A stretch of DNA of 44,203 nucleotides from Planctomycetota bacterium (GTDB lineage: Bacteria; Planctomycetota; Planctomycetia; Pirellulales; PLA5). Of the stretch, positions 1 to 42,638 are shown one piece after another (within the stretch, counting starts at the first letter, position 1; each line of letters starts with the position of its first letter). The position numbers and the translations under genes are program-made. The DNA is taken from positions 1 to 44,203 of the forward strand of contig QEVJ01000032.1 of the NCBI GenBank assembly GCA_003576845.1. The letters run 5' to 3'. Below the pieces are notes generated by a model. That model was not told the DNA's origin, ran no database searches, and saw nothing but the letters and a program-made list of their open reading frames with translations.

Positions 1-149
1 CCTTGCACGGTACCGCAAACACAAACGAAGCTCCTCGAAACGCACCAAACCCATTAACAAGACAAACCGCCAACACGCCGCTACGGCACGCCTATTAAGC
101 ACAGCATAAAACAAATGCTAGCAACCGAAATGCTAGTACAAAGCACTGC

Positions 150-184
150 CTCTAACCTCTAACCTCCAACCTCTAATCTCTAAC
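150..184. repeat. Heptad array overlapping the 3' end of proA
   Basis: Five consecutive 7-bp units are visible: CTCTAAC, CTCTAAC, CTCCAAC, CTCTAAT, CTCTAAC. The stop codon of proA (173-175 on the minus strand) and its last codons lie inside the array. The array belongs to the family of degenerate 7-bp arrays seen at about ten places in this window. Nothing gene-like is visible in 1-149. Confidence 0.85.
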
Positions 185-2368: not shown

Positions 2369-2461
2369 CTGTCCACTTCCCACTTGAAGCCGCTGCCTTG
2401 CGACCGAACCCTAAGCTACGCTCTCCCCGAACCCCGAATCCCAAATCCCGTCCCCCAAATG
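2369..2461. repeat. Degenerate heptad tracts leading to the NUDIX start codon
   Basis: Two tracts are visible. At 2369-2389 the units are CTGTCCA, CTTCCCA, CTTGAAG. At 2428-2455 they are CGAACCC, CGAATCC, CAAATCC, CGTCCCC, and the next unit, CAAATGC, contains the start codon at 2459. The first tract shares the 14-base word CTGTCCACTTCCCA with the array at 42611-42638. Confidence 0.7.
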
Positions 2462-4320: not shown

Positions 4321-4437
4321 GGGGAATGCAAAATGCAAAATGCAAAATGAAGAATGCTCACGCCAGCCGGAGCCCTTAATTCTTCATCCTTCATATTGCC
4401 TTTTGCATTTCCTCTGTGTCTCCGTGACTCCGCGTTT
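4321..4437. repeat. Facing heptad arms followed by a nonamer tract
   Basis: Left arm 4321-4355: GGGGAAT, then GCAAAAT three times, then GAAGAAT. Right arm 4376-4410: TTAATTC, TTCATCC, TTCATAT, TGCCTTT, TGCATTT, roughly the reverse complement of the left. The 9-bp units CCTCTGTGT, CTCCGTGAC, TCCGCGTTT follow directly (4411-4437). The same order, heptads then nonamers, occurs at 7078-7147. Confidence 0.8.
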
Positions 4438-4468
4438 CGAAGTCGTCCCGTTGACCGCACGCGCCGCC

Positions 4469-7013: not shown

Positions 7014-7150
7014 CGCAAAGCGGCAGAGGCGCAAAGCATCCCGAATCGCAGAATCCAACACCGCGGCCACAATCGTTCTTCATTCTGCATTCTTCATTTT
7101 GCATTCTGCCGTTCGCAATTCCTCCGCGTCCTCCGTGTCCTCTGTGTTTA
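7014..7150. repeat. Nested heptad and nonamer repeat block before the ABC-2 permease
   Basis: Heptads at 7081-7115 read CATTCTG, CATTCTT, CATTTTG, CATTCTG, CCGTTCG; three of these words recur at 36984-37011. The 9-bp units CCTCCGCGT, CCTCCGTGT, CCTCTGTGT occupy 7121-7147. The left part (7014-7037) contains CGCAAAG and GCAGAGGCGCAAAG, a rough complement of the nonamers, so the block can fold back. Confidence 0.75.
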
Positions 7151-8062: not shown

Positions 8063-8437
8063 TAACGCAGAGGGCAAAGAGTGGCGGGTGGCCACAACCA
8101 AATAACCATCCACAGATGGCGCAGACGTTTGCAGACGAGGAAGGATCGCGTCGAACGGCATTCATCTGCGGTCATCTGCGCAATCTGTGGATGAGTTTTC
8201 CTCCGGTTCGGCCGGTGGCCGTCTTGCTTCCGCATGTGTGGGACGAGAAATCTCTTCAGGATGCGAAGATTCGGACTGCTAACAGTGCAGAGGTTGCGCA
8301 GAGAAGGTCACGAAGTGGCGGCGTTCTGCCCGTGGATTGTTCCAACCGGAAGAAGCAAGTCGCGAAACCGAATCGCGTCTCGGGATCGTTCTCTTCTCTG
8401 CGACCTCTGCGAGTCCTCTGCGCCTCTGCGTTAAGAA
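8063..8437. repeat. Long nonamer-type inverted repeat enclosing a second repeat
   Basis: This is the gap between the permease and the DUF4254 gene; no gene is visible in it. Right arm at about 8394-8437: CTTCTCTGCG, ACCTCTGCG, AGTCCTCTGCG, CCTCTGCGTTAA. Left-arm pieces are TAACGCAGAGGGCAAAG (8063-8079) and GCAGAGGTTGCGCAGAGAAG (8287-8306). A different inverted repeat (8109-8192) sits between the two left-arm pieces, as if one element had inserted in another. Confidence 0.75.
8109..8192. repeat. Inverted repeat of ATCTGCG words nested in the nonamer block
   Basis: Arms 8109-8139 (TCCACAGATGGCGCAGACG...) and 8162-8192 (...CATCTGCGCAATCTGTGGA) are complementary at about 24 of 31 positions with a 22-base loop. 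The internal period is about 10 bp (CATCTGCGG, TCATCTGCGC). Confidence 0.8.
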
Positions 8438-9120: not shown

Positions 9121-9262
9121 GACGGCATCCTTGCAATCGGGTGAAAAACGCAAGCGGCGGATTCTAAATGCGTCCGCCCCGCCACACAAGGCAAGCTAGG
9201 CAACCCGCGCGAATTGCGAGGCACTCCAGGCGAGCAATCGCAAATCGCGGTTGACTTCAACC

Positions 9263-9332
9263 TCAATCCTCAATCCTCAATCCTCAATCCTCGCTCCTCG
9301 ATCCTCGATCCTCGATCCTCCATCCTCCGCCC
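9263..9332. repeat. Ten-unit heptad array upstream of the export-repeat gene
   Basis: Ten contiguous 7-bp units: TCAATCC four times, TCGCTCC, TCGATCC three times, TCCATCC, TCCGCCC. Changes are confined mostly to positions 2-4 while the flanking TC and CC persist, which suggests constrained drift and not random decay. It is the longest uninterrupted array in the window. The rest of 9121-9468 holds the promoter candidate below and no gene. Confidence 0.92.
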
Positions 9333-9373: not shown

Positions 9374-9468
9374 GCCGGCCGACCCGAGACGTGCGCGGCG
9401 ACCCTTTCTCGGCGTGAAACTCTTTCACGCTGCCGCGCAATTTCATTCCGAGCATGGAGGACCGGAAG

Positions 9469-12400
9469 ATGAGTTTCGCTCTGCGAACGGTTGCGTGCTG
9501 CGCGACGATCGTCGCCGCGCTGTGGCCCGCGAAAGCAATCGGCGACGAAGCCGCGCTCAAACGCACCGCGCCCGACGAGTGCATCGCCTGGTTCTCCTGG
9601 GCGGGCCTCGACGCACTCGCCAAAGACGGCGCAAAGACGAACCGCACGGAACAACTGCTCGCCGACGAAGAAGTCCGCGCGTTTCTCGATTCGATCGCCA
9701 AGAACTTGGACGGCGCGATCGACGTCGGCGACGACGATGACACGAAGCACTTCGCGCAGCTCTTCCGCGTCCTGAGCAAACGTCCCGCCGTCGCGTATCT
9801 CTCAAGAATCGCTCAAGTTAAACGCGAAGCGCCACCCAAGGCGCCGGAGCCGCCGACGACTCCGCCGCAAGCCGCTGTCCTCCAGACGAACAAGGCGTGG
9901 ATCGGTGACGATGGCTTGGAGCGCGTCGGCATCGACTTCGAAGTCCAAGCCACGGCGGGCGATGTGCCGCCTGCGCCCGCTGCAAGCTCGTCAATTGCTC
10001 CCGCAGTCGCGCCGCAACTCGAAGTGCGAGTCGGACCCGGCGGCCCGCCGAGAATCGGGCGCGTTCGCACCGTCGAGAAGAACGGCGAGAAGCGCCGCGA
10101 AGTCGAGTTGGTCTGGCCCCACGCGACCGAGTGGCGCGAGTTCGAAGTCGACGTGCCGATCAACGACGACGGCTCGTGGGGCAAGGGAAGCGACCGGCCC
10201 GTCGCCAGGGAAGAGCTTGAAACCGTTGCGTCGAACATAACACCCACTACCGCGCGATTCGGCCGCTCGCGAAAGGTCACCGTCAATGGCAAAGAGCAAA
10301 ACGAAGTCGAAGTCATCTCGCCGCATGGCAGGGAATGGGTTCGCGTCGACTTCGACCATGAATTGCAGACTGATAGTCCGACGAACCAGGATGAGCCGCT
10401 GCTTCCGGCGGCCCATATGACAGAAGTCGATAGCCTCAAGTCAAAACTATACGGAGGATTTCAAGTAGGCCAAGCGTCGCCGAACTACACGCCCGACCCA
10501 AGTTTCTCCGGCCCACCTGGTCCGGTCTTTCCGCCATCGCCATACGCCCCGCCCGTTCCTGCCATTGCCGCACAAATCTGCACCGACTGCTCAAGTTGCA
10601 CGTCGTGCGAAGCCTCGACTACCGTCTCCGTCATGCACGGCGCGGTCGTGGTCGACCTCGGCGAACACCTTGCCGAAGCGAAAACGCTCTACGACAAGCT
10701 CACGGCCGAAGGATCTGAGCTTCCCAAGCAAACGATCGCGGAAGTTGAGTTTGCGAAGCTCGCCTGGGATCAGCCGATGTATCTTGCGTTCCACGAGGCC
10801 TACCTGATCGTCGCCTTCGACGAAGCCTCCGCCGAGCAGTGCGCGAGCGGTCTCGCCGGCAAGCGCGAAGTGCCGAAGTGGCTCGCCGATGCGGAAGCGA
10901 ATTTGCCCGTCGAGCGCCCCGCTGCGCGGCTGCACGTCAATATCGACGGCATCACGAAGCTCGTCGATGAACCCTTCGAAGAACCGAGCCAGGAGTTCGT
11001 CAAGCTCCTCGGTCTCGATCAGGTGAGCGCAATCTCGTTCGTCGCTGGACTTGACGACCGCGGCACGGCGATCAAAACGTTGTTGACCGCCCGGACCAAT
11101 GGCCCAGAAATCTCGCGTAGAACCCCACGGCGTCCTCGTGATCGACAACAGGAAGTGCCAGTAGTCTTCGATTTTTTCAGCGGGTTTCTTACCCCGGACG
11201 ATCTGTCTCCGATTCCCAGGGACGCCACCATGGCGGCCGCGGGTAAGATCGACGTGAAGAAGATTCTCGGCCTAGGTCTCAAACTCGCAAAGCTGGAGGA
11301 CGACGAAGCAGAATCCGCGTGGGAAGAAGCAAAGAAGTATCTGGCCGAGCGCCTTTTTGTCGACCTTTCGAAAGACATCGTCGAAGCGCTCGGCAGCACG
11401 TGGACGCTTCATTATTCTTCGAGCGAAGGCGGACTGATGGCGACTACGTTCACGTTCACCGTCCGAGATGAAGCTCGACTGAAAACGGCACTCGAAAAAC
11501 TGGCACTCGTAGCGAATGCCGAAAACGCCTACGTGCGCAAGTTCACTTATCGCGGGCAGGACGTTTACTATTGGCAAGGTGGTGACGACGGCGGAAGCGC
11601 GGCATGGTGCATTCGCGATGGACGTCTCGTCGCAAGTTTATTGCCCCAGACAATCAAGGCCCATATCGCCCGCGGGCCACTAAAAGAAACGCTTGCCGAT
11701 GTGCCGGACGTAAGGAAACTCTTACCTGTAGGAGAAAAGCCAACATCCGGCCCGCTCGTGCTTTCTTACACTGACACGCGCGGCATCTTACAGTGGTGTT
11801 ACCAATACGGCTCGTTCCTCTTGCCGACGATCGGCCAGCAACTTGCCCAAGCCGATGAAGTCACACTCGCCTTGCACGACTTCCCGTCGCTCGCCGTGAT
11901 CGAGCAATACTTCGCCCCCAGCATCACCACCGTCTCGCGCACCGACGCCGGCCTGCTCATCGACAGCCGCCAAACCGTGCCGATGATGTCGGGCATGTTG
12001 TTCACCCTCGTCGCCGCGCGCGGCGTCGAGAGCACGATGGGCGATCCGCTCGGCCTGGCCGACGTCGCCGACCTAGCGTCCTCGGTCGTAGATCTCCCCA
12101 CGGACATCGCGGTCGCCGCCGGCGGAATCGGTGGGTCGAGCATTTCGCCCTATTGGCATAACGACGACGTCCAGTATTTCCCGGCGACGCCCGACGCACT
12201 TCCGGTGGTGCCCCTGCCCCCGAACACAGCCAGCCCTGGCGTCGGCGGGCCAGGTCCGGTAGCGCCTCCTGCGTATGCCCCACCCGGCACACCCGTTCCC
12301 TACGCGCCCAGCGTGCCCGGCCAACCCTACATTCCGCCGCCGGCAACCGCGCCGACATTTCCGCCCGCGTATTATCCGGCACCCGTGCCGCCAATGCCGC

Positions 12401-13998
12401 GGGCGCCGGTCGCCATCCCGGCACCACCGAACGTGCCGCTCAGTGTTCCCGCCGGCCTCGCGCCGCACGTCAAACCGCAGCCGGCGACACCGACGCCTCC
12501 CGCGCCGCTTCCGCCTCCTGCCGTGCTGCGCAATGTACCCGCTGGCAAGCTCTGGCAAGGCGCACCAGCCGCAGTGGCGCCCGGCACGACGGCGCCGGCG
12601 GCCTACGCCGCTCCGCTCAGTCCGCCACCTTCAACGGCGGCTTCGCCGGCAACGTACTCGGGTCCCGGTCCGAGCGTCATCGGTCCGCCACGCGATGGGC
12701 CTAACGCCGACGGTGCGCTTGACGTGCCGCATGGCGTTGGCGATCGCTATCCCAACCCGTTCGCCAACAAATTGGCGGAGGCTCCCGGTTCTGCTGATGC
12801 GGCGCCACGGGAAAAGCCTAAGGCTACTGCGCAACCGTCCGACAAAGCCAAGCCGGTCAAAGGCGTGCCGTCGGGTCGTCCATCGCGAAAACTCTTCCGC
12901 CGACGCGCGGATGCGCCAACCAATCGCACGATCGAAACGATGGACTTGCTGTCCGTCGAGTTGATTCGAGGCGTGCCGAAGCCGCCCAAGGTGATCCAGC
13001 CTGGAGATCGCCTGCAAGTCCTCGTCGAGGGCACGGATTATTCACCGCTATCGGGAGTATTCCAAATCTGTCCCGAAGGAACGTTGGGCGGCTTGGACGC
13101 GCTTCGCGTCGGCGGACTCTCGCTGGAGAAAGCGCGCGCTGCGGTCGAGGACTACCTTCGTACTCCCACGAATGACCCAAGAGTATCCATCAGCCTCATT
13201 GAATTTGCCGGTCAGGCCCAAATCTCCGGCCACCATTCGCTCGGACCCGGCGGTTACCTTCAATTTGGCCCTCGCGGCGTAAAAGTCGTAGGTCTCACGC
13301 TCGACGAAGCGAAGGTCGAAATTGAGAAGCTGCTGGGCGAGCGCTTCGAATCGCCGGAAGTCCGTCTTTCGTTTCCAACGGACGCGGTAACGGAGCAAGA
13401 TGCCAAGTCCGTCGCCGCTCGTCTCGTCGAGAATCCGAAACCGTCCAATCCCGCGGTGTGGGCCAAGAACTTTCGGCTCCAACCGAACGATGTCCTCTCC
13501 CTCGAAACGGTCTGCGTCCAGCCACAGGACTCTTACAAGCTCGCCCCAAACGACCAGGTAAGCACTTGGATCGAAAAGACAAAAGACGGTCATACGTACT
13601 GGGCATCGGGCGAAGTGCTCGATGACGGGACGTATGAAATCGGCGGCGACTTCGGCATCGTTAAAATTGCCGGACTGACGGTGTCCGAAGCACGCGAGGT
13701 GGTGCGAAAGCAAGTGCGTACTACCTCGCCGAACGCCCGCACGTCGTTCGACCTGGACCTCAGCCTCATTGAAAACAACCTCGTCAAGGGTTATTGCATC
13801 GGCGGCGACGGCCAAATTCAACTCGGTCGGTACGGCAACGTCGACGTCGTCGATTGTCCTCTGGCCGAAGCCCGCACGCGTATCGAGGCCAGGCTAAAAG
13901 AACACTTCGGCGACGCCGAGGTTCAACTCGATGCACGGCCGAGCGGCAAGATCGGCGACTCCGGCGTAAGGGTCGGTTTCAGCAAATGGGGGTTCTAG
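9469..13998 (+). CDS. Large secreted protein with polysaccharide-export-like C-terminal repeats
   Basis: The 1509-residue product opens with a signal peptide (ending near residue 25, WPAKAIGDE). The N-terminal region to about 360 includes two similar basic segments (RVRTVEKNGEKRREVELVWP and RSRKVTVNGKEQNEVEVISP), each followed by REF or REWV. A proline-rich spacer precedes a CTDCSSCTSC cluster (Cys371, 374, 377, 380). Residues about 385-890 form an unrecognised globular region, and about 905-1070 is a long Pro/Ala linker. From about 1170 to the end are three repeats resembling the Poly_export/SLBB modules of Wza-type outer-membrane proteins (IQPGDRLQVLVEG, LGGLDALRVGGLSLEKA, VVGLTLDEAKVEIEKLL, IAGLTVSEAREVV, VDCPLAEARTRIE). 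GGAGG at 9456-9460 supports the ATG at 9469. No kinase or polymerase of a capsule locus is adjacent. Confidence 0.75.
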   Translation: MSFALRTVACCATIVAALWPAKAIGDEAALKRTAPDECIAWFSWAGLDALAKDGAKTNRTEQLLADEEVRAFLDSIAKNLDGAIDVGDDDDTKHFAQLFRVLSKRPAVAYLSRIAQVKREAPPKAPEPPTTPPQAAVLQTNKAWIGDDGLERVGIDFEVQATAGDVPPAPAASSSIAPAVAPQLEVRVGPGGPPRIGRVRTVEKNGEKRREVELVWPHATEWREFEVDVPINDDGSWGKGSDRPVAREELETVASNITPTTARFGRSRKVTVNGKEQNEVEVISPHGREWVRVDFDHELQTDSPTNQDEPLLPAAHMTEVDSLKSKLYGGFQVGQASPNYTPDPSFSGPPGPVFPPSPYAPPVPAIAAQICTDCSSCTSCEASTTVSVMHGAVVVDLGEHLAEAKTLYDKLTAEGSELPKQTIAEVEFAKLAWDQPMYLAFHEAYLIVAFDEASAEQCASGLAGKREVPKWLADAEANLPVERPAARLHVNIDGITKLVDEPFEEPSQEFVKLLGLDQVSAISFVAGLDDRGTAIKTLLTARTNGPEISRRTPRRPRDRQQEVPVVFDFFSGFLTPDDLSPIPRDATMAAAGKIDVKKILGLGLKLAKLEDDEAESAWEEAKKYLAERLFVDLSKDIVEALGSTWTLHYSSSEGGLMATTFTFTVRDEARLKTALEKLALVANAENAYVRKFTYRGQDVYYWQGGDDGGSAAWCIRDGRLVASLLPQTIKAHIARGPLKETLADVPDVRKLLPVGEKPTSGPLVLSYTDTRGILQWCYQYGSFLLPTIGQQLAQADEVTLALHDFPSLAVIEQYFAPSITTVSRTDAGLLIDSRQTVPMMSGMLFTLVAARGVESTMGDPLGLADVADLASSVVDLPTDIAVAAGGIGGSSISPYWHNDDVQYFPATPDALPVVPLPPNTASPGVGGPGPVAPPAYAPPGTPVPYAPSVPGQPYIPPPATAPTFPPAYYPAPVPPMPRAPVAIPAPPNVPLSVPAGLAPHVKPQPATPTPPAPLPPPAVLRNVPAGKLWQGAPAAVAPGTTAPAAYAAPLSPPPSTAASPATYSGPGPSVIGPPRDGPNADGALDVPHGVGDRYPNPFANKLAEAPGSADAAPREKPKATAQPSDKAKPVKGVPSGRPSRKLFRRRADAPTNRTIETMDLLSVELIRGVPKPPKVIQPGDRLQVLVEGTDYSPLSGVFQICPEGTLGGLDALRVGGLSLEKARAAVEDYLRTPTNDPRVSISLIEFAGQAQISGHHSLGPGGYLQFGPRGVKVVGLTLDEAKVEIEKLLGERFESPEVRLSFPTDAVTEQDAKSVAARLVENPKPSNPAVWAKNFRLQPNDVLSLETVCVQPQDSYKLAPNDQVSTWIEKTKDGHTYWASGEVLDDGTYEIGGDFGIVKIAGLTVSEAREVVRKQVRTTSPNARTSFDLDLSLIENNLVKGYCIGGDGQIQLGRYGNVDVVDCPLAEARTRIEARLKEHFGDAEVQLDARPSGKIGDSGVRVGFSKWGF

Positions 13999-14108: not shown

Positions 14109-14222
14109 GTGAATGGAAAATGGTGAATAGCGAATGGTGAACGAAGGCGCCGCGTCGGCGCGTGCTCCGCGCCATTCACGATTCACAATTCACCATTTAC
14201 CACTCACCATTCGCCCCCACGG
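14109..14222. repeat. Facing heptad arms before the pterin-binding gene
   Basis: Right arm 14174-14222: ATTCACG, ATTCACA, ATTCACC, ATTTACC, ACTCACC, ATTCGCC, CCCACGG, ending 5 bases before the start codon. Left arm about 14109-14143 reads GTGAATGGAAAATGGTGAAT and onward, complementary at about 28 of 34 positions. Words ATTCACC and ATTCACA recur at 27598-27632. Confidence 0.85.
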
Positions 14223-24900: not shown

Positions 24901-25043
24901 GCAGCGGAAATCGCCAAGATTTCCGGGCGCAACGTGGAATTGCGGAGCATCGGAGGTCGTGGCGACTTCCACTACGGTGCATTGCCATCGAACGGCTCAT
25001 TGCTCATCATTCATCGTTCCGCATTCATCGCGCGCCGTTCGTC
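24901..25043. repeat. Stop-proximal palindrome followed by degenerate heptads
   Basis: 24901-24977 is a diverged two-hairpin copy of the stop-proximal palindrome: first half GCGGAAATCGCCAAGATTTCCG, second half ending GGCGACTTCCACTACGG. Heptads then run from 24993 to 25041 (CGGCTCA, TTGCTCA, TCATTCA, TCGTTCC, GCATTCA, TCGCGCG, CCGTTCG), so the next unit contains the start codon at 25044. Confidence 0.75.
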
Positions 25044-26534: not shown

Positions 26535-27515
26535 ATGTCGCTGGCAACTGCCCTCGCCGCGACGCCGCGCTCCTTGCGGCCGCACCTCGGCGGCTTGCCG
26601 GCGCGGATGCACGTGTTGCACATTGCCAACCAGCAAGGCCTGGGCGATTGGCTGGCCGAGGCATTTCTCGCCGACAGCGCCTCGGAAGTCCGGCTGGCCA
26701 AAGCGGTGGGCACGGCCGCCGGGCTTGCCCGCCTGCGGCACGACGTGTTCGACGCGATCCTGATCAGCCACCAGCCCGGCGAACTCGACGCGCTCGAAAC
26801 GGTCGAGGGCATCCGCGCGGCCCATCCCGACGTCGCGATCGTAGTCCTCGGCGCGCAGAGCGAGCAGGAGATGGCCGCGCTATGCCTCGAGGTCGACGCC
26901 GACGCCTACGTGTGCGTCCACACCGCCACGACCCGCGCCCTGTTGTGGCAAATGGCCCGAGCGATCGAGCGGCACCAACTGCTTGCCGAAAACCGCCGGC
27001 TCCATCAAGCCGAACAACACCGGCTCTCGCAAGAACATCGGGAAGTCGAGCGGCTCCTCGGCCAGCAGCGGTCGCTGATCGCAAACCTCGCGGCCATCGA
27101 CGGTTCGGCCGAGAAGTCGGCCGTGCCGGCCGTGCACACAGACGTTGACGCCACCGGCAATCGGCCGGCGCACATCGACTGCGAAGGCGAACTGCCGGAA
27201 CGGCTCGTTGCGCACTATCGCGAGTTGCTCCGCACCTACGTCATCATGGGGTCCGGCCAGTTGACCGACGAGATGAACAAGCTGGCCGATCTCCTGGCCA
27301 CCGCGGAAGTCACCGCGCGGCAAGCCATGTGGCTGCACCTGCGCGTTCTAGAAGAGTTGATCCGCGGACTCGGCAATCGCAGCGCGCGGCACGTAATGAA
27401 CCGGGCCGATCTGTTGGTCGTCGACGTGCTCGTGCATTTGACCGAGCGGTATCGCCGGCGTTATCTCGACCGAATCCGCCCGCCGCGCCAACTAACGCTG
27501 CCCGGAATAGATTAG
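26535..27515 (+). CDS. Receiver-like domain protein with a helical C-terminus
   Basis: The 326-residue product has an N-terminal Rossmann-like segment of receiver type (MHVLHIANQQGLGDWLAEAF, VFDAILISHQPGELDALETV, VAIVVLGAQSEQEMAALCLE, ADAYVCV). The phosphoacceptor position after the third strand reads ILISHQP where an Asp is normal, so it looks degenerate. A helical linker, probably coiled coil (residues about 130-185), follows, with a helical C-terminal domain (LRTYVIMGSGQLTDEMNKLA, MWLHLRVLEELIRGLGNRSA). I do not recognise the C-terminal domain. The gene is monocistronic with a good promoter upstream. Confidence 0.65.
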   Translation: MSLATALAATPRSLRPHLGGLPARMHVLHIANQQGLGDWLAEAFLADSASEVRLAKAVGTAAGLARLRHDVFDAILISHQPGELDALETVEGIRAAHPDVAIVVLGAQSEQEMAALCLEVDADAYVCVHTATTRALLWQMARAIERHQLLAENRRLHQAEQHRLSQEHREVERLLGQQRSLIANLAAIDGSAEKSAVPAVHTDVDATGNRPAHIDCEGELPERLVAHYRELLRTYVIMGSGQLTDEMNKLADLLATAEVTARQAMWLHLRVLEELIRGLGNRSARHVMNRADLLVVDVLVHLTERYRRRYLDRIRPPRQLTLPGID

Positions 27516-27590: not shown

Positions 27591-27639
27591 ATTCGTCATT
27601 CACCAATCACAATTCACCATTTACGATTCACAATTCGTT
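27591..27639. repeat. Heptad array overlapping the 3' end of the NUDIX CoA pyrophosphatase gene
   Basis: Seven units: ATTCGTC, ATTCACC, AATCACA, ATTCACC, ATTTACG, ATTCACA, ATTCGTT. The minus-strand stop codon TAA (27623-27621) and the last codons of the NUDIX gene are within it. The words match those at 14174-14201. Confidence 0.88.
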
Positions 27640-36135: not shown

Positions 36136-36259
36136 TTGACGCAGAGGGCGCAGAGGTCGCGCTGAGGTCGCAGAGAGGAACGGGGATTGTAGACGGATTG
36201 TCGCACCTTTCCTCATCGCCTCTGCGTACTCTGCGAAACCTCTGCGTCCTCTGCGTTAA
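36136..36259. repeat. Nonamer inverted repeat between recG and the isochorismatase gene
   Basis: Left arm 36136-36175 (TTGACGCAGAGGGCGCAGAG...) and right arm 36220-36259 (...CTCTGCGTCCTCTGCGTTAA) are each 40 bases and largely complementary, with about 44 bases between. The right arm reads as 9-to-10-bp units ending in CTCTGCG. It fills most of the 331-bp gap, and no gene is visible there. Confidence 0.85.
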
Positions 36260-36334: not shown

Positions 36335-36934
36335 ATGCCCGAACCTCTGCCGCTCGTTCGTAGTCCTGAACTGTTGTCGGTGGCCGACAGCGGTTTGCTC
36401 GTCGTCGACGTGCAAGAAAAGCTGATTGGCCTGTTGCCGGAGCATCGCCGGATCGTGTGGAACATCGGCCGACTTCTCGACGGGGCACGAACGCTGGGCG
36501 TCCATGCCGCGGCGACCGAGCAGTATCCCCAGGGACTCGGCCCGACGGTTTCGGCACTGGCGGGGCGGTTCACGCAAGCCGGTGAACCGCCGCTGCCGAG
36601 CAAAGTGATGTTCAGTTGCCGCGGTTGCGAGGGGACGTTTGCCGCCTTTCGCGAGCGGGGACTGTTCAAGCTGCTCCTCGTCGGCATCGAAACACACGTT
36701 TGCATCCAGCAGACGGCGCTCGACGCGATGGCCAACGGGTTTCGCGTGTACCTCGCCGTCGACGCGGTTGGCGCGCGATTCGCCATCGACCACGACACGG
36801 CCCTCCGCCGCCTGGAAGCCTCCGGCGCGACGCTCACCACGACCGAATCGGCCTTGTTCGAATGGTGCGAAGTGGCCGGCACCGCAGAATTCAAAGAAAT
36901 CAGCCGCATCGTGCGGCAACCGATGCCAGGGTAA
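36335..36934 (+). CDS. Isochorismatase-family cysteine hydrolase
   Basis: A 199-residue cytosolic hydrolase. The catalytic triad is visible: Asp25 (VVDVQEKL), Lys90 (LPSKVMFS) and Cys123 (ETHVCIQQTA). The preceding GIETHV and the following DAMANGFRVYLAVDA are standard. Members of this superfamily hydrolyse isochorismate, nicotinamide or other amides, and the substrate is unclear. The start at 36335 has no obvious ribosome site. Its TAA stop directly abuts the inverted heptad array. Confidence 0.88.
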   Translation: MPEPLPLVRSPELLSVADSGLLVVDVQEKLIGLLPEHRRIVWNIGRLLDGARTLGVHAAATEQYPQGLGPTVSALAGRFTQAGEPPLPSKVMFSCRGCEGTFAAFRERGLFKLLLVGIETHVCIQQTALDAMANGFRVYLAVDAVGARFAIDHDTALRRLEASGATLTTTESALFEWCEVAGTAEFKEISRIVRQPMPG

Positions 36935-37037
36935 ATGAAGAATGCAAAATGAAGAATGAAAAATGTTCGGGAAGCTGCGTCGGCATTTTTCATTCTTCAT
37001 TTTGCATTCTGCATTCCCCCAGCCCCCAGCCCCCAAC
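36933..37037. repeat. Near-perfect 33-bp inverted heptad arms in front of purB
   Basis: Left arm 36933-36965 and right arm 36984-37016 match as reverse complements at 31 of 33 positions, with an 18-base loop. The right strand reads CATTTTT, CATTCTT, CATTTTG, CATTCTG, CATTCCC, then CCAGCCC twice, and the next unit is CCAACAT, which includes the purB start codon (37038). The isochorismatase stop codon (36932-36934) touches the left end, so the element also links two genes. Confidence 0.95.
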
Positions 37038-38465
37038 ATGTCCCACGACCGCTACGAAAACCCGCTCGTTGCGCGGTATGCCTCGCGCGAGATGACTGCG
37101 CTGTGGAGCGACGATCGCAAGTTTCGCACGTGGCGCACGCTGTGGGTTGCGCTGGCCGAGGCGGAAGCGGAGTTGGGACTCGAAATCGCGCCGGCGCAGA
37201 TCGCGGAGCTAAAGGCCCACGTCGACGACATCGACTTTGAAGGGGCGGCGAATTACGAGCGGAAATTACGGCACGACGTGATGGCGCACGTACACGCTTA
37301 CGGCGACGTCTGTCCGACGGCTCGGCCGATCATCCACCTGGGCGCGACGAGTTGTTACGTCACGGACAACACGGATTTGATTTTGATACACGAGGGACTG
37401 CAAATGATCGCCGCGCGGCTCGCTGCGGTGATCGACCGGCTCGCAGCGTTTGCGTCGCAGCAACGCGCCACCGCGTGCCTGGCGTTTACGCACTTGCAGC
37501 CGGCCCAACCGACCACCGTCGGCAAACGGGCGTGTCTCTGGGCCTACGATCTCGTGCAGGACCTCGAAGAAATCGAACGCCGCGCCGCCGGACTCAAGGC
37601 CCGCAGCGTCAAGGGCACGACCGGCACGCAGGCCAGCTTTCTCGAACTGTTCGCGGGCGATCACGAAAAGGTCCGCCGCCTCGAACGCCGCGTGGCCGAA
37701 AAAATCGGCTTTGATAGAACTTACGCGGTGACGGGCCAAACGTATTCGCGCAAAGTCGACTCGCAAGTCCTCGACGCCCTCTCCGGCGTGGCCCAAAGCG
37801 CTCACAAAGCGGCCACCGACGTGCGGATTCTCTCGCACCGCAAGGAAATCGAGGAACCGTTCGAGAAGGATCAGATCGGTTCGTCGGCGATGGCATACAA
37901 GCGCAACCCGATGCGGAGCGAGCGGATTTGTGCTCTCGCCCGCTACGTGATGAGCCTTCCGGCAAACGCGGCGGCGACGCTCGCGACGCAGTGGATGGAG
38001 CGGACGCTCGACGACAGCGCGAACCGGCGAATTACGATTCCGCAGGCGTTTCTCGGCGTCGACGCCATCTTGCAGCTTTACCAGAACGTCGTCGAAGGTC
38101 TGGTCGTTTATCCGCGGGTAATTTCAAAACACTTGCAGGCAGAACTTCCGTTCATGGCGACGGAGAACATTCTGATGGCGGCCGTGGCGGCGGGAGGCGA
38201 TCGCCAGGACTTGCACGAGAGGATTCGGCAGCACAGCGTCGCCGCAGGCCGCGTCGTCAAGGAAGAGGGCGGCGAGAACGACTTGCTCGCGCGGCTCGCT
38301 TCCGATCCGGCATTTGCGAACGTGAATCTCACCGAGCAACTCGACGCGAACAAGTTCGTCGGCCGCGCTCCCGAGCAGGTGGACGAGTTCGTCGCCGAAG
38401 TCGTCGAGCCGATCCGCAGCCGGTATCGCGATTCGCTCGCAACCGCCGCGGAGGTCCGGGTCTGA
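37038..38465 (+). CDS. purB: Adenylosuccinate lyase (PurB)
   Basis: Cleaves SAICAR and adenylosuccinate, releasing fumarate, in purine biosynthesis. The 475-residue protein shows the fumarase/aspartase signature [14 protein letters not shown] with Lys288 and Asn290, and the usual landmarks: [40 protein letters not shown] with the conserved Gln, [13 protein letters not shown]. The start at 37038 opens with [16 protein letters not shown]; an ATG at 36963 lies inside the repeat. The heptad array ends exactly at this ATG, so ribosome access may involve the hairpin. Confidence 0.95.
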
Positions 38466-42549: not shown

Positions 42550-42610
42550 AGGTACGGCGTCGGTCGTTCCGAGCCGGATGCCTCCCGAGATGCGTGGCGG
42601 AAAAGTCAAA

Positions 42611-42638
42611 CTGTCCACTGCCCACTGTCCACTTCCCA
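42611..42638. repeat. Heptad array before the MFS/acyltransferase 3' end
   Basis: Four units: CTGTCCA, CTGCCCA, CTGTCCA, CTTCCCA. The word CTGTCCACTTCCCA is shared with 2369-2382, about 40 kb away. It lies in the gap between two convergent genes. Confidence 0.85.

Follow-up and report, generated by a model that had tools for sequence, protein, structure and literature searches.

The window analysed here, a stretch of 44,203 nucleotides, is contig C236 of a Pirellulales-type planctomycete genome of 7.05 Mb in 289 contigs. It carries purB (37038-38465), which encodes adenylosuccinate lyase with the Pfam domains ADSL_C and Lyase_1 and has its nearest relatives in Pirellulales and other Planctomycetota, at no more than 74-77% identity. 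A genome of the same genus, G001, is ~67-83% identical to the window in the longer pieces of DNA that align, and no plasmid relatives were found for the purB region or its hairpin. Among the other genes on the plus strand, 26535-27515 encodes a protein of 326 aa, whose N-terminal half is receiver-like and whose C-terminus matches the KaiA C-terminal domain (PF07688, 25.0 bits against a cut-off of 22.2), and to which KaiA chains in the PDB align weakly at 219-309 (E ~0.004). Judged from its sequence, this protein would have the layout of cyanobacterial KaiA, here in a planctomycete; KaiB (PF07689) was not found in this genome. A further plus-strand gene (9454-13998) encodes a 1514-aa protein, whose sole recognised domain is Poly_export (polysaccharide export) near residue 1200.

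Between the genes of the window lie tandem arrays of degenerate 7-bp words, several of which adjoin a start or a stop codon (Table 1). The arrays were detected by a lag-7 self-matching score, with order-1 shuffles of the window as controls. At a score of at least 12, the window holds 11 arrays against a mean of 0.05 in the shuffles (maximum 1), and at a score of at least 14 it holds seven against none. Arrays called weak in Table 1 score 8-9, a level at which shuffles yield up to 2.7 per window, and two of them, 4375-4410 and 14112-14141, are the more credible for the strong facing arm with which each of them pairs. The original prediction, made from the sequence of the window, placed degenerate heptads at about ten loci, and nine of the 11 sites it listed proved solid by lag-7 scoring. 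The site at 24993-25043 fared less well, its score of 8 being within reach of the shuffles, and 2369-2389 was rejected as an array, as it has no 7-bp periodicity of its own. The sequence said to be shared between 2369 and 42625 is a 14-mer match, which by our estimate is expected by chance a few times per 44 kb. The start codons that arrays were said to reach or nearly reach (ATG 2459, 14228, 25044 and 37038) were all chosen independently by a codon-usage caller, and ATG 37038 is also the point where purB homology begins. The hairpin at 36934-37016 pairs 31 of 32 positions, with an RNA fold of -43.2 kcal/mol (z -7.8). No Rfam family was found in the window at gathering score.

Table 1 Heptad arrays and the 9-bp repeat hairpin in the window. 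Spans in the fourth column are those of the lag-7 call.
Feature	Position	Strand	Lag-7 call	Score	Context
(CTCTAAC)n on plus strand	149-184	-	solid, 149-183	20.5	GTTAGAG outward from minus-strand gene 173-1366 at its stop; TRF period 7
(CCCCGAA)n	2425-2449	+	solid, 2425-2449	13	Ends ~10 bp 5' of ATG 2459, a start independently chosen; sense strand C-rich
AATGMAR class, first, G-rich hairpin arm	4325-4356	+	solid, 4325-4356	20	Between divergent genes; fold z -4.7; missing from the orthologous region of G001
Second, C-rich arm of the 4325 hairpin	4375-4410	+	weak, 4375-4410	9	Paired in fold; followed by CTCTGTGTCTCCGTG 9-bp repeat tail
AATGMAR class, C-rich strand (CATTCTG)	7073-7109	+	solid, 7073-7109	15	35 bp 5' of ATG 7144
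(TCAATCC)n grading into (TCGATCC)n	9261-9328	+	solid, 9261-9328	51	Longest array of the window; one of six exceptions to paired-arm polarity
GTGAATG class, first hairpin arm	14112-14141	+	weak, 14112-14141	8	Pairs with 14174-14215 in fold, z -5.0
(ATTCACC)n, second hairpin arm	14174-14215	+	solid, 14174-14215	17.5	Ends 12 bp 5' of ATG 14228
TCATTCA, strongly degenerate	24995-25043	+	weak, 24995-25019	8	Runs into ATG 25044
(ATTCACC)n on plus strand	27591-27636	-	solid, 27591-27636	14	GGTGAAT outward from minus-strand NUDIX gene at stop 27621
9-bp repeat hairpin	36140-36256	+			CGCAGAGGT arm 36140-36178, CTCTGCGTA arm 36220-36256; G-arm first; TRF
AATGMAR class, first arm	36934-36965	+	solid, 36934-36965	12.5	Begins at the stop codon of gene 36335-36934
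AATGMAR class, second arm	36984-37016	+	solid, 36984-37035 with next row	16	
(CCCCAGC)n, second word class	37016-37035	+	solid, see previous row	13	2 bp 5' of purB ATG 37038
GRCAGTG class, C-rich strand (ACTGTCC)	42610-42638	+	solid, 42610-42633	12	Between convergent genes

The arrays are not confined to the window. A first sample of 1.12 Mb, comprising the window and 60 further stretches with 783 genes from our own codon-usage caller, was scanned at lags 4-30. At a score of at least 14 it contained 84 lag-7 arrays in intergenic DNA (45 per 100 kb), 14 in coding DNA (1.5 per 100 kb) and none in shuffled intergenic DNA, and the only other lags that rose clearly were 14, 21 and 28. Some of the coding arrays probably lie in miscalled frames. 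A joint sample of 1.96 Mb, which adds 0.84 Mb chosen round known word hits, gave 188 intergenic and 48 coding arrays (odds ratio 19, p ~4e-99), although densities and word counts are biased upward here, because of that choice and because the first long contigs also came from a hit list. The autocorrelation scan against shuffles thus gave a strong lag-7 peak, and in the 1.96 Mb such arrays are roughly 19-fold denser in intergenic than in coding DNA. Neither an absence of periodicity nor an equal density inside genes was seen, and the heptads first noticed in the window are therefore real and genome-wide. Both marks of Mrazek-type LSSRs or STRRs are present, namely tandem 7-nt units far above chance and their concentration in intergenic DNA. 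A looser score cut-off yielded the 337 intergenic arrays considered below, which make up 11.6 kb of the 332 kb of sequence between genes.

When each is read on its G-richer strand, the 337 arrays comprise 75 distinct consensus words in at least seven classes, which bears out the earlier impression of many words, some common to several sites. The main words are AATG[AC]A[AG], GGGATTC with GGGGTCG and GGGGCTG, GAGGTT[AG], GTGAATG, GGATTGA, TGATGA[AG] and G[AG]CAGTG. Where the word switches within an array, the 7-bp step is kept, as at C8:120728-120790 and C77:13768-13819. In the AATG class, the word set in which AATG is followed by AAG, CAA, AAA or CAG is common to ~50 loci, these four endings accounting for 263 of the ~280 units counted. 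Succession of CAA by AAG is over-represented (40 versus 22.8), as expected from a 14-bp ancestral unit that slippage has reshuffled and that has mutated little. The classes differ in placement, since a start is no more than 15 bp away from 45 of 86 GGGNNTN arrays, but from only five of 100 AATG arrays. Four GGG tracts occur in 59 of the 337 arrays and are absent from the other 278.

The common property of all arrays is their orientation relative to the gene end, not their word. Within 50 bp of a gene end, the G-rich strand points outward in 220 of 245 arrays (220:25), compared to only ~60% outward polarity at array-free gene boundaries; as gene ends come from our own caller, called starts may be off. 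Polarity does not depend on the word, being 101:8 for words with GGG, 68:9 for those with GG only and 51:8 for those without GG, and it is equal between convergent genes. Among unpaired arrays, outward and inward orientations stand at 89:11 up to 15 bp from the gene end, 22:6 at 16-50 bp and 13:14 beyond 50 bp, so that the rule is tied to the gene end rather than to pairing or a palindrome. Unpaired arrays within 30 bp of one gene end and at least 120 bp from the other point outward 31:0 at starts and 18:3 at stops, and those within 50 bp of a start in divergent spacers do so 20:0. Unpaired arrays also crowd at gene ends, with 60% lying within 15 bp as opposed to 27% (sd 3%) under random placement. 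The arrays had been described as often in phase with a start codon; they do adjoin starts, but they adjoin stops about equally often. An outward G-strand means that the RNA just before gene entry is G-poor and C-rich, and that the RNA just after exit is G-rich. When an array lies within 12 nt of a start, an SD-like 4-mer is found in one of 58 genes, compared to 449 of 1320 other genes.

A second repeat, with a 9-bp unit (ACACGGAGG / CCTCCGTGT and variants), occurs in the window at 36140-36256, 8396-8430, 7120-7147 and 4411-4438, as well as at many other loci. It can fold into hairpins by itself, and in places it adds an outer stem to AATG heptad hairpins; of 47 AATG stems, 16 are flanked by it on one side or both. 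Dimers of this repeat (C[AG]C[AG]GAG and variants) number 173 in intergenic and 12 in coding DNA, with an outward polarity of 135:4.

Arrays facing each other had been noticed in the window, and genome-wide about half are indeed paired, 174 of 337 having an inverted partner in the same spacer while shuffled partners gave 0 of 673. What had been missed is the fixed order of the arms and the same polarity in unpaired arrays. The G-rich arm comes first in 166 paired arrays and second in six, most of these exceptions belonging to an AAGTCTC/AAGGTTC-like class, and neighbouring arrays within one spacer follow the order G then C in 73 cases and the reverse order in one. The distinct hairpins number 113, with a median stem of 29 bp. 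Facing pairs are rarer in divergent (7/226) than in co-directional spacers (62/660; p 0.0014) and are not enriched between convergent genes. Read in the mRNA sense, stem mismatches in co-directional spacers comprise 62 G.U and 71 A.C; there being no excess of G.U, pairing is not kept through wobble and selection at the RNA level is unsupported. Facing arms share a word class (word distance 1.6 versus 2.8 at random), and in the AATG class an arm pairs with its own partner no better than with swapped ones (p 0.95), the p values for GTGAAT and GGGATTC being 0.67 and 0.09. An origin of the arms as local inverted copies was thus rejected for the AATG class. Loops and flanks appear unrelated between hairpin copies.

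Between related genomes, the arrays differ in number and detail. Pattern counts in this genome and in G001 are 279 and 48 for GGGATTC, and 131 and 14 for AATG. Orthologous spacers in G001 often retain the class but differ in heptad order, arm length and loop (L280:1698-1902, C119:83725-83887, L253:1014-1172), and elsewhere an array is present in only one of the two genomes (L260:13243-13373, C192:122663-122709, C236:4151-4468). Among 80 other planctomycete loci, arrays stand 5' of purB in six, with the words CTCCAAA, GCCACTA, TGCCTTC, CCTGACT, ACCAAGA and GCCACGA, all of which have more C than G in the sense strand. Of the planctomycete genera sampled, 16 of 210 have the AATG pattern, a patchy distribution over unrelated families. 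Heptad words identical or similar to those of the AATG class recur in genomes G329, G228, G221, G137 and G249, which belong to families unrelated to that of this genome, and are absent from most other families.

Heptameric repeats have been noted to outnumber other long simple repeats in many bacteria, and to our knowledge neither their unit length nor their function has been explained so far; in the best-studied case they were taken for a G-quadruplex element. For the cyanobacterial STRRs, to which the arrays had been likened, we know of no definition that includes polarity or gene-end position. The arrays share with STRRs the heptanucleotide unit and the presence of more than one word per genome; for Calothrix PCC 7601, three STRR heptanucleotide words are cited in PMC4692102. 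The kinship holds in that both are of the same general kind, but the closest case is the GGGNATC repeats of Xanthomonas and Nostoc, which have the same position and polarity (PMC4692102). Rehm et al. 2015 described GGGAATC heptamers in Xanthomonas campestris and X. axonopodis and GGGGA(C/T)T heptamers in Nostoc PCC 7120, and interpreted them as G-quadruplexes (PMC4692102). Like the present arrays, these have a 7-bp unit and many intergenic copies that vary in length between relatives and are fewer in divergent spacers, and their G-rich strand is antisense if a start follows within 50 bp or sense if a stop precedes within 50 bp. The Xanthomonas repeats also share the convergent inverted pairs, of which Nostoc has few. 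Of the features that mark GGGNATC-type repeats, outward polarity (220:25) and convergent inverted pairs (166:6) were thus found here, whereas a G4-forming word is not general, only 59 of 337 arrays having four GGG tracts; instead of one G4-forming word type per genome there are ~75 words, many without GG, and a 9-bp class, all with the same polarity. The TAACTGA direct repeats of marine Beggiatoaceae, Cyanobacteria and Bacteroidetes, for which MacGregor 2015 proposed a translational role, likewise adjoin start codons with few canonical ribosome-binding sites and are patchily spread across lineages, but TAACTGA is a single word, nearly always direct, and related heptamers are rarely repeated (PMC4679880). 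REP/REPIN elements are also abundant intergenic palindromes and known in Planctomycetes, but REPs are fixed palindromes of 20-40 bp with GTAG or CGTC tags and no tandem heptads (PMC3733652).

Several explanations have to be weighed against these observations. The word classes common to many loci, the class-matched facing arms and the AATG arms that fit their own partner no better than those of other hairpins could suggest dispersing elements, in which a transposase, reverse transcriptase or other copier spreads word-specific hairpins and slippage then scrambles the arms. The 9-bp repeats flanking 16 of 47 AATG stems, the patchy distribution among genera and the presence or absence at orthologous spacers would also fit. 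Yet, loops and flanks appear unrelated between copies, single arrays with strict gene-end polarity are not the residue of a transposon, and Y1/REP-type transposases do not track the repeats (four in G000, none in G001 and 13 in G007, which has no GGGATTC repeats), so that dispersal is an unlikely account. A REP/RAYT system in particular was rejected, as words and loops vary and counts of PF01797 (Y1_Tnp) do not follow the repeats. About equally unlikely is a role at the RNA level, in which facing arrays would be transcribed intercistronic stem-loops that protect, process or terminate mRNA both ways, the purine-first, pyrimidine-second order leaving the second arm with a weak RNA-DNA hybrid whichever strand is transcribed. 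The 113 hairpins with their long stems and folds of z -4.7 to -7.8 argue for such elements, as does the scarcity of facing pairs in divergent spacers; but half of the arrays are partnerless and keep the same polarity, pairs are not enriched between convergent genes, and the window holds no Rfam family. A structured RNA with compensatory or wobble changes was discarded, given the balance of G.U and A.C mismatches and the equal pairing of own and swapped AATG arms.

The G-quadruplex or i-motif proposed for the Xanthomonas and Nostoc repeats is a very improbable explanation here, even though the GGGNNTN class is common (86 arrays classed) and 59 arrays have four GGG tracts. The other 278 arrays do not, and since the rule holds for words without GG (51:8), which also keep the position, and for the 9-bp repeat (135:4), G-quadruplexes are not its basis and were rejected as a common one. 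Least probable is a telomere-like or template-directed process, in which G-strand heptads would be added to the 3' ends left where a spacer breaks, and the ends then joined. It would yield a G-arm first, unrelated loops and independent arms, and thus agrees with the 73 to 1 order per spacer, with arms that are independent within a class and with a 7-nt step fixed whatever the word. No enzyme was identified for it, though, and polarity is tied to the closeness of a gene end, which break repair could not know. The cleanest units are not distal either (0.96 versus 0.76 mismatches), and directional growth of the arrays has little in its favour, the 5' unit being slightly cleaner than the 3' unit.

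The explanation we prefer, at a probability of about 0.42, is that 7-nt slippage arrays are tolerated only outside genes, and that selection sorts them at gene ends by the composition of their strands and not by the word. The arrays would arise by tandem duplication in 7-nt steps through polymerase slippage, which Mrazek proposed as the source of bacterial heptamers, as cited in PMC4679880 and PMC4692102. Upstream of starts, the filter would be translation initiation, as an array in the opposite orientation would place SD-like GGAG or start-like AATG in the sense strand. Downstream of stops, C-rich, G-poor untranslated RNA would recruit Rho, a putative filter, while antisense RNA that enters the gene with this C-rich strand may be harmless or useful. 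Two genes with a Rho RNA-binding domain were seen, at C289:81496 (frame of 564 aa) and C147:73526 (445 aa; more divergent). Facing pairs could reflect a short spacer filled from both ends together with dispersal of successful words, and an RNA hairpin, if any, would be a by-product. The restriction to period 7 and to intergenic DNA, the word-independent polarity, the crowding of unpaired arrays at gene ends, the dearth of SD words and the purB words that all have more C than G support such sorting by composition. So do the G001 spacers that retain the class with another heptad order and loop, the absence of a G.U excess in stems and the two Rho genes. Against it, slippage alone leaves the sharing of words by ~50 loci and the recurrence of classes in distant families unexplained, and the equal polarity at convergent genes, where Rho should matter less, counts against the putative Rho step. 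Arrays are densest at gene ends, though a filter that only removes would thin them there; gene ends are therefore favoured, or arrays are created there. With the density at ends and the spread of the same words over the genome unexplained, there is still room for dispersal or for an active process. Such a process might be a word-independent punctuation of gene ends, an improbable reading in which the cell maintains arrays at hundreds of gene ends that share only the outward orientation of the G-strand, with words made uniform within the genome and exchanged for others from lineage to lineage at the same ends. If true, some process would have to recognise gene ends or the direction of transcription and renew the arrays.

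Whichever way they are maintained, the arrays are of the same kind as the Xanthomonas and Nostoc repeats, now in a planctomycete, and what they add is a rule independent of the word, of the ability to form G4 and even of the period. This genome and six relatives each have their own words at purB. With the word separated from the rule here, the question becomes why the G-poor strand must lead into the gene.
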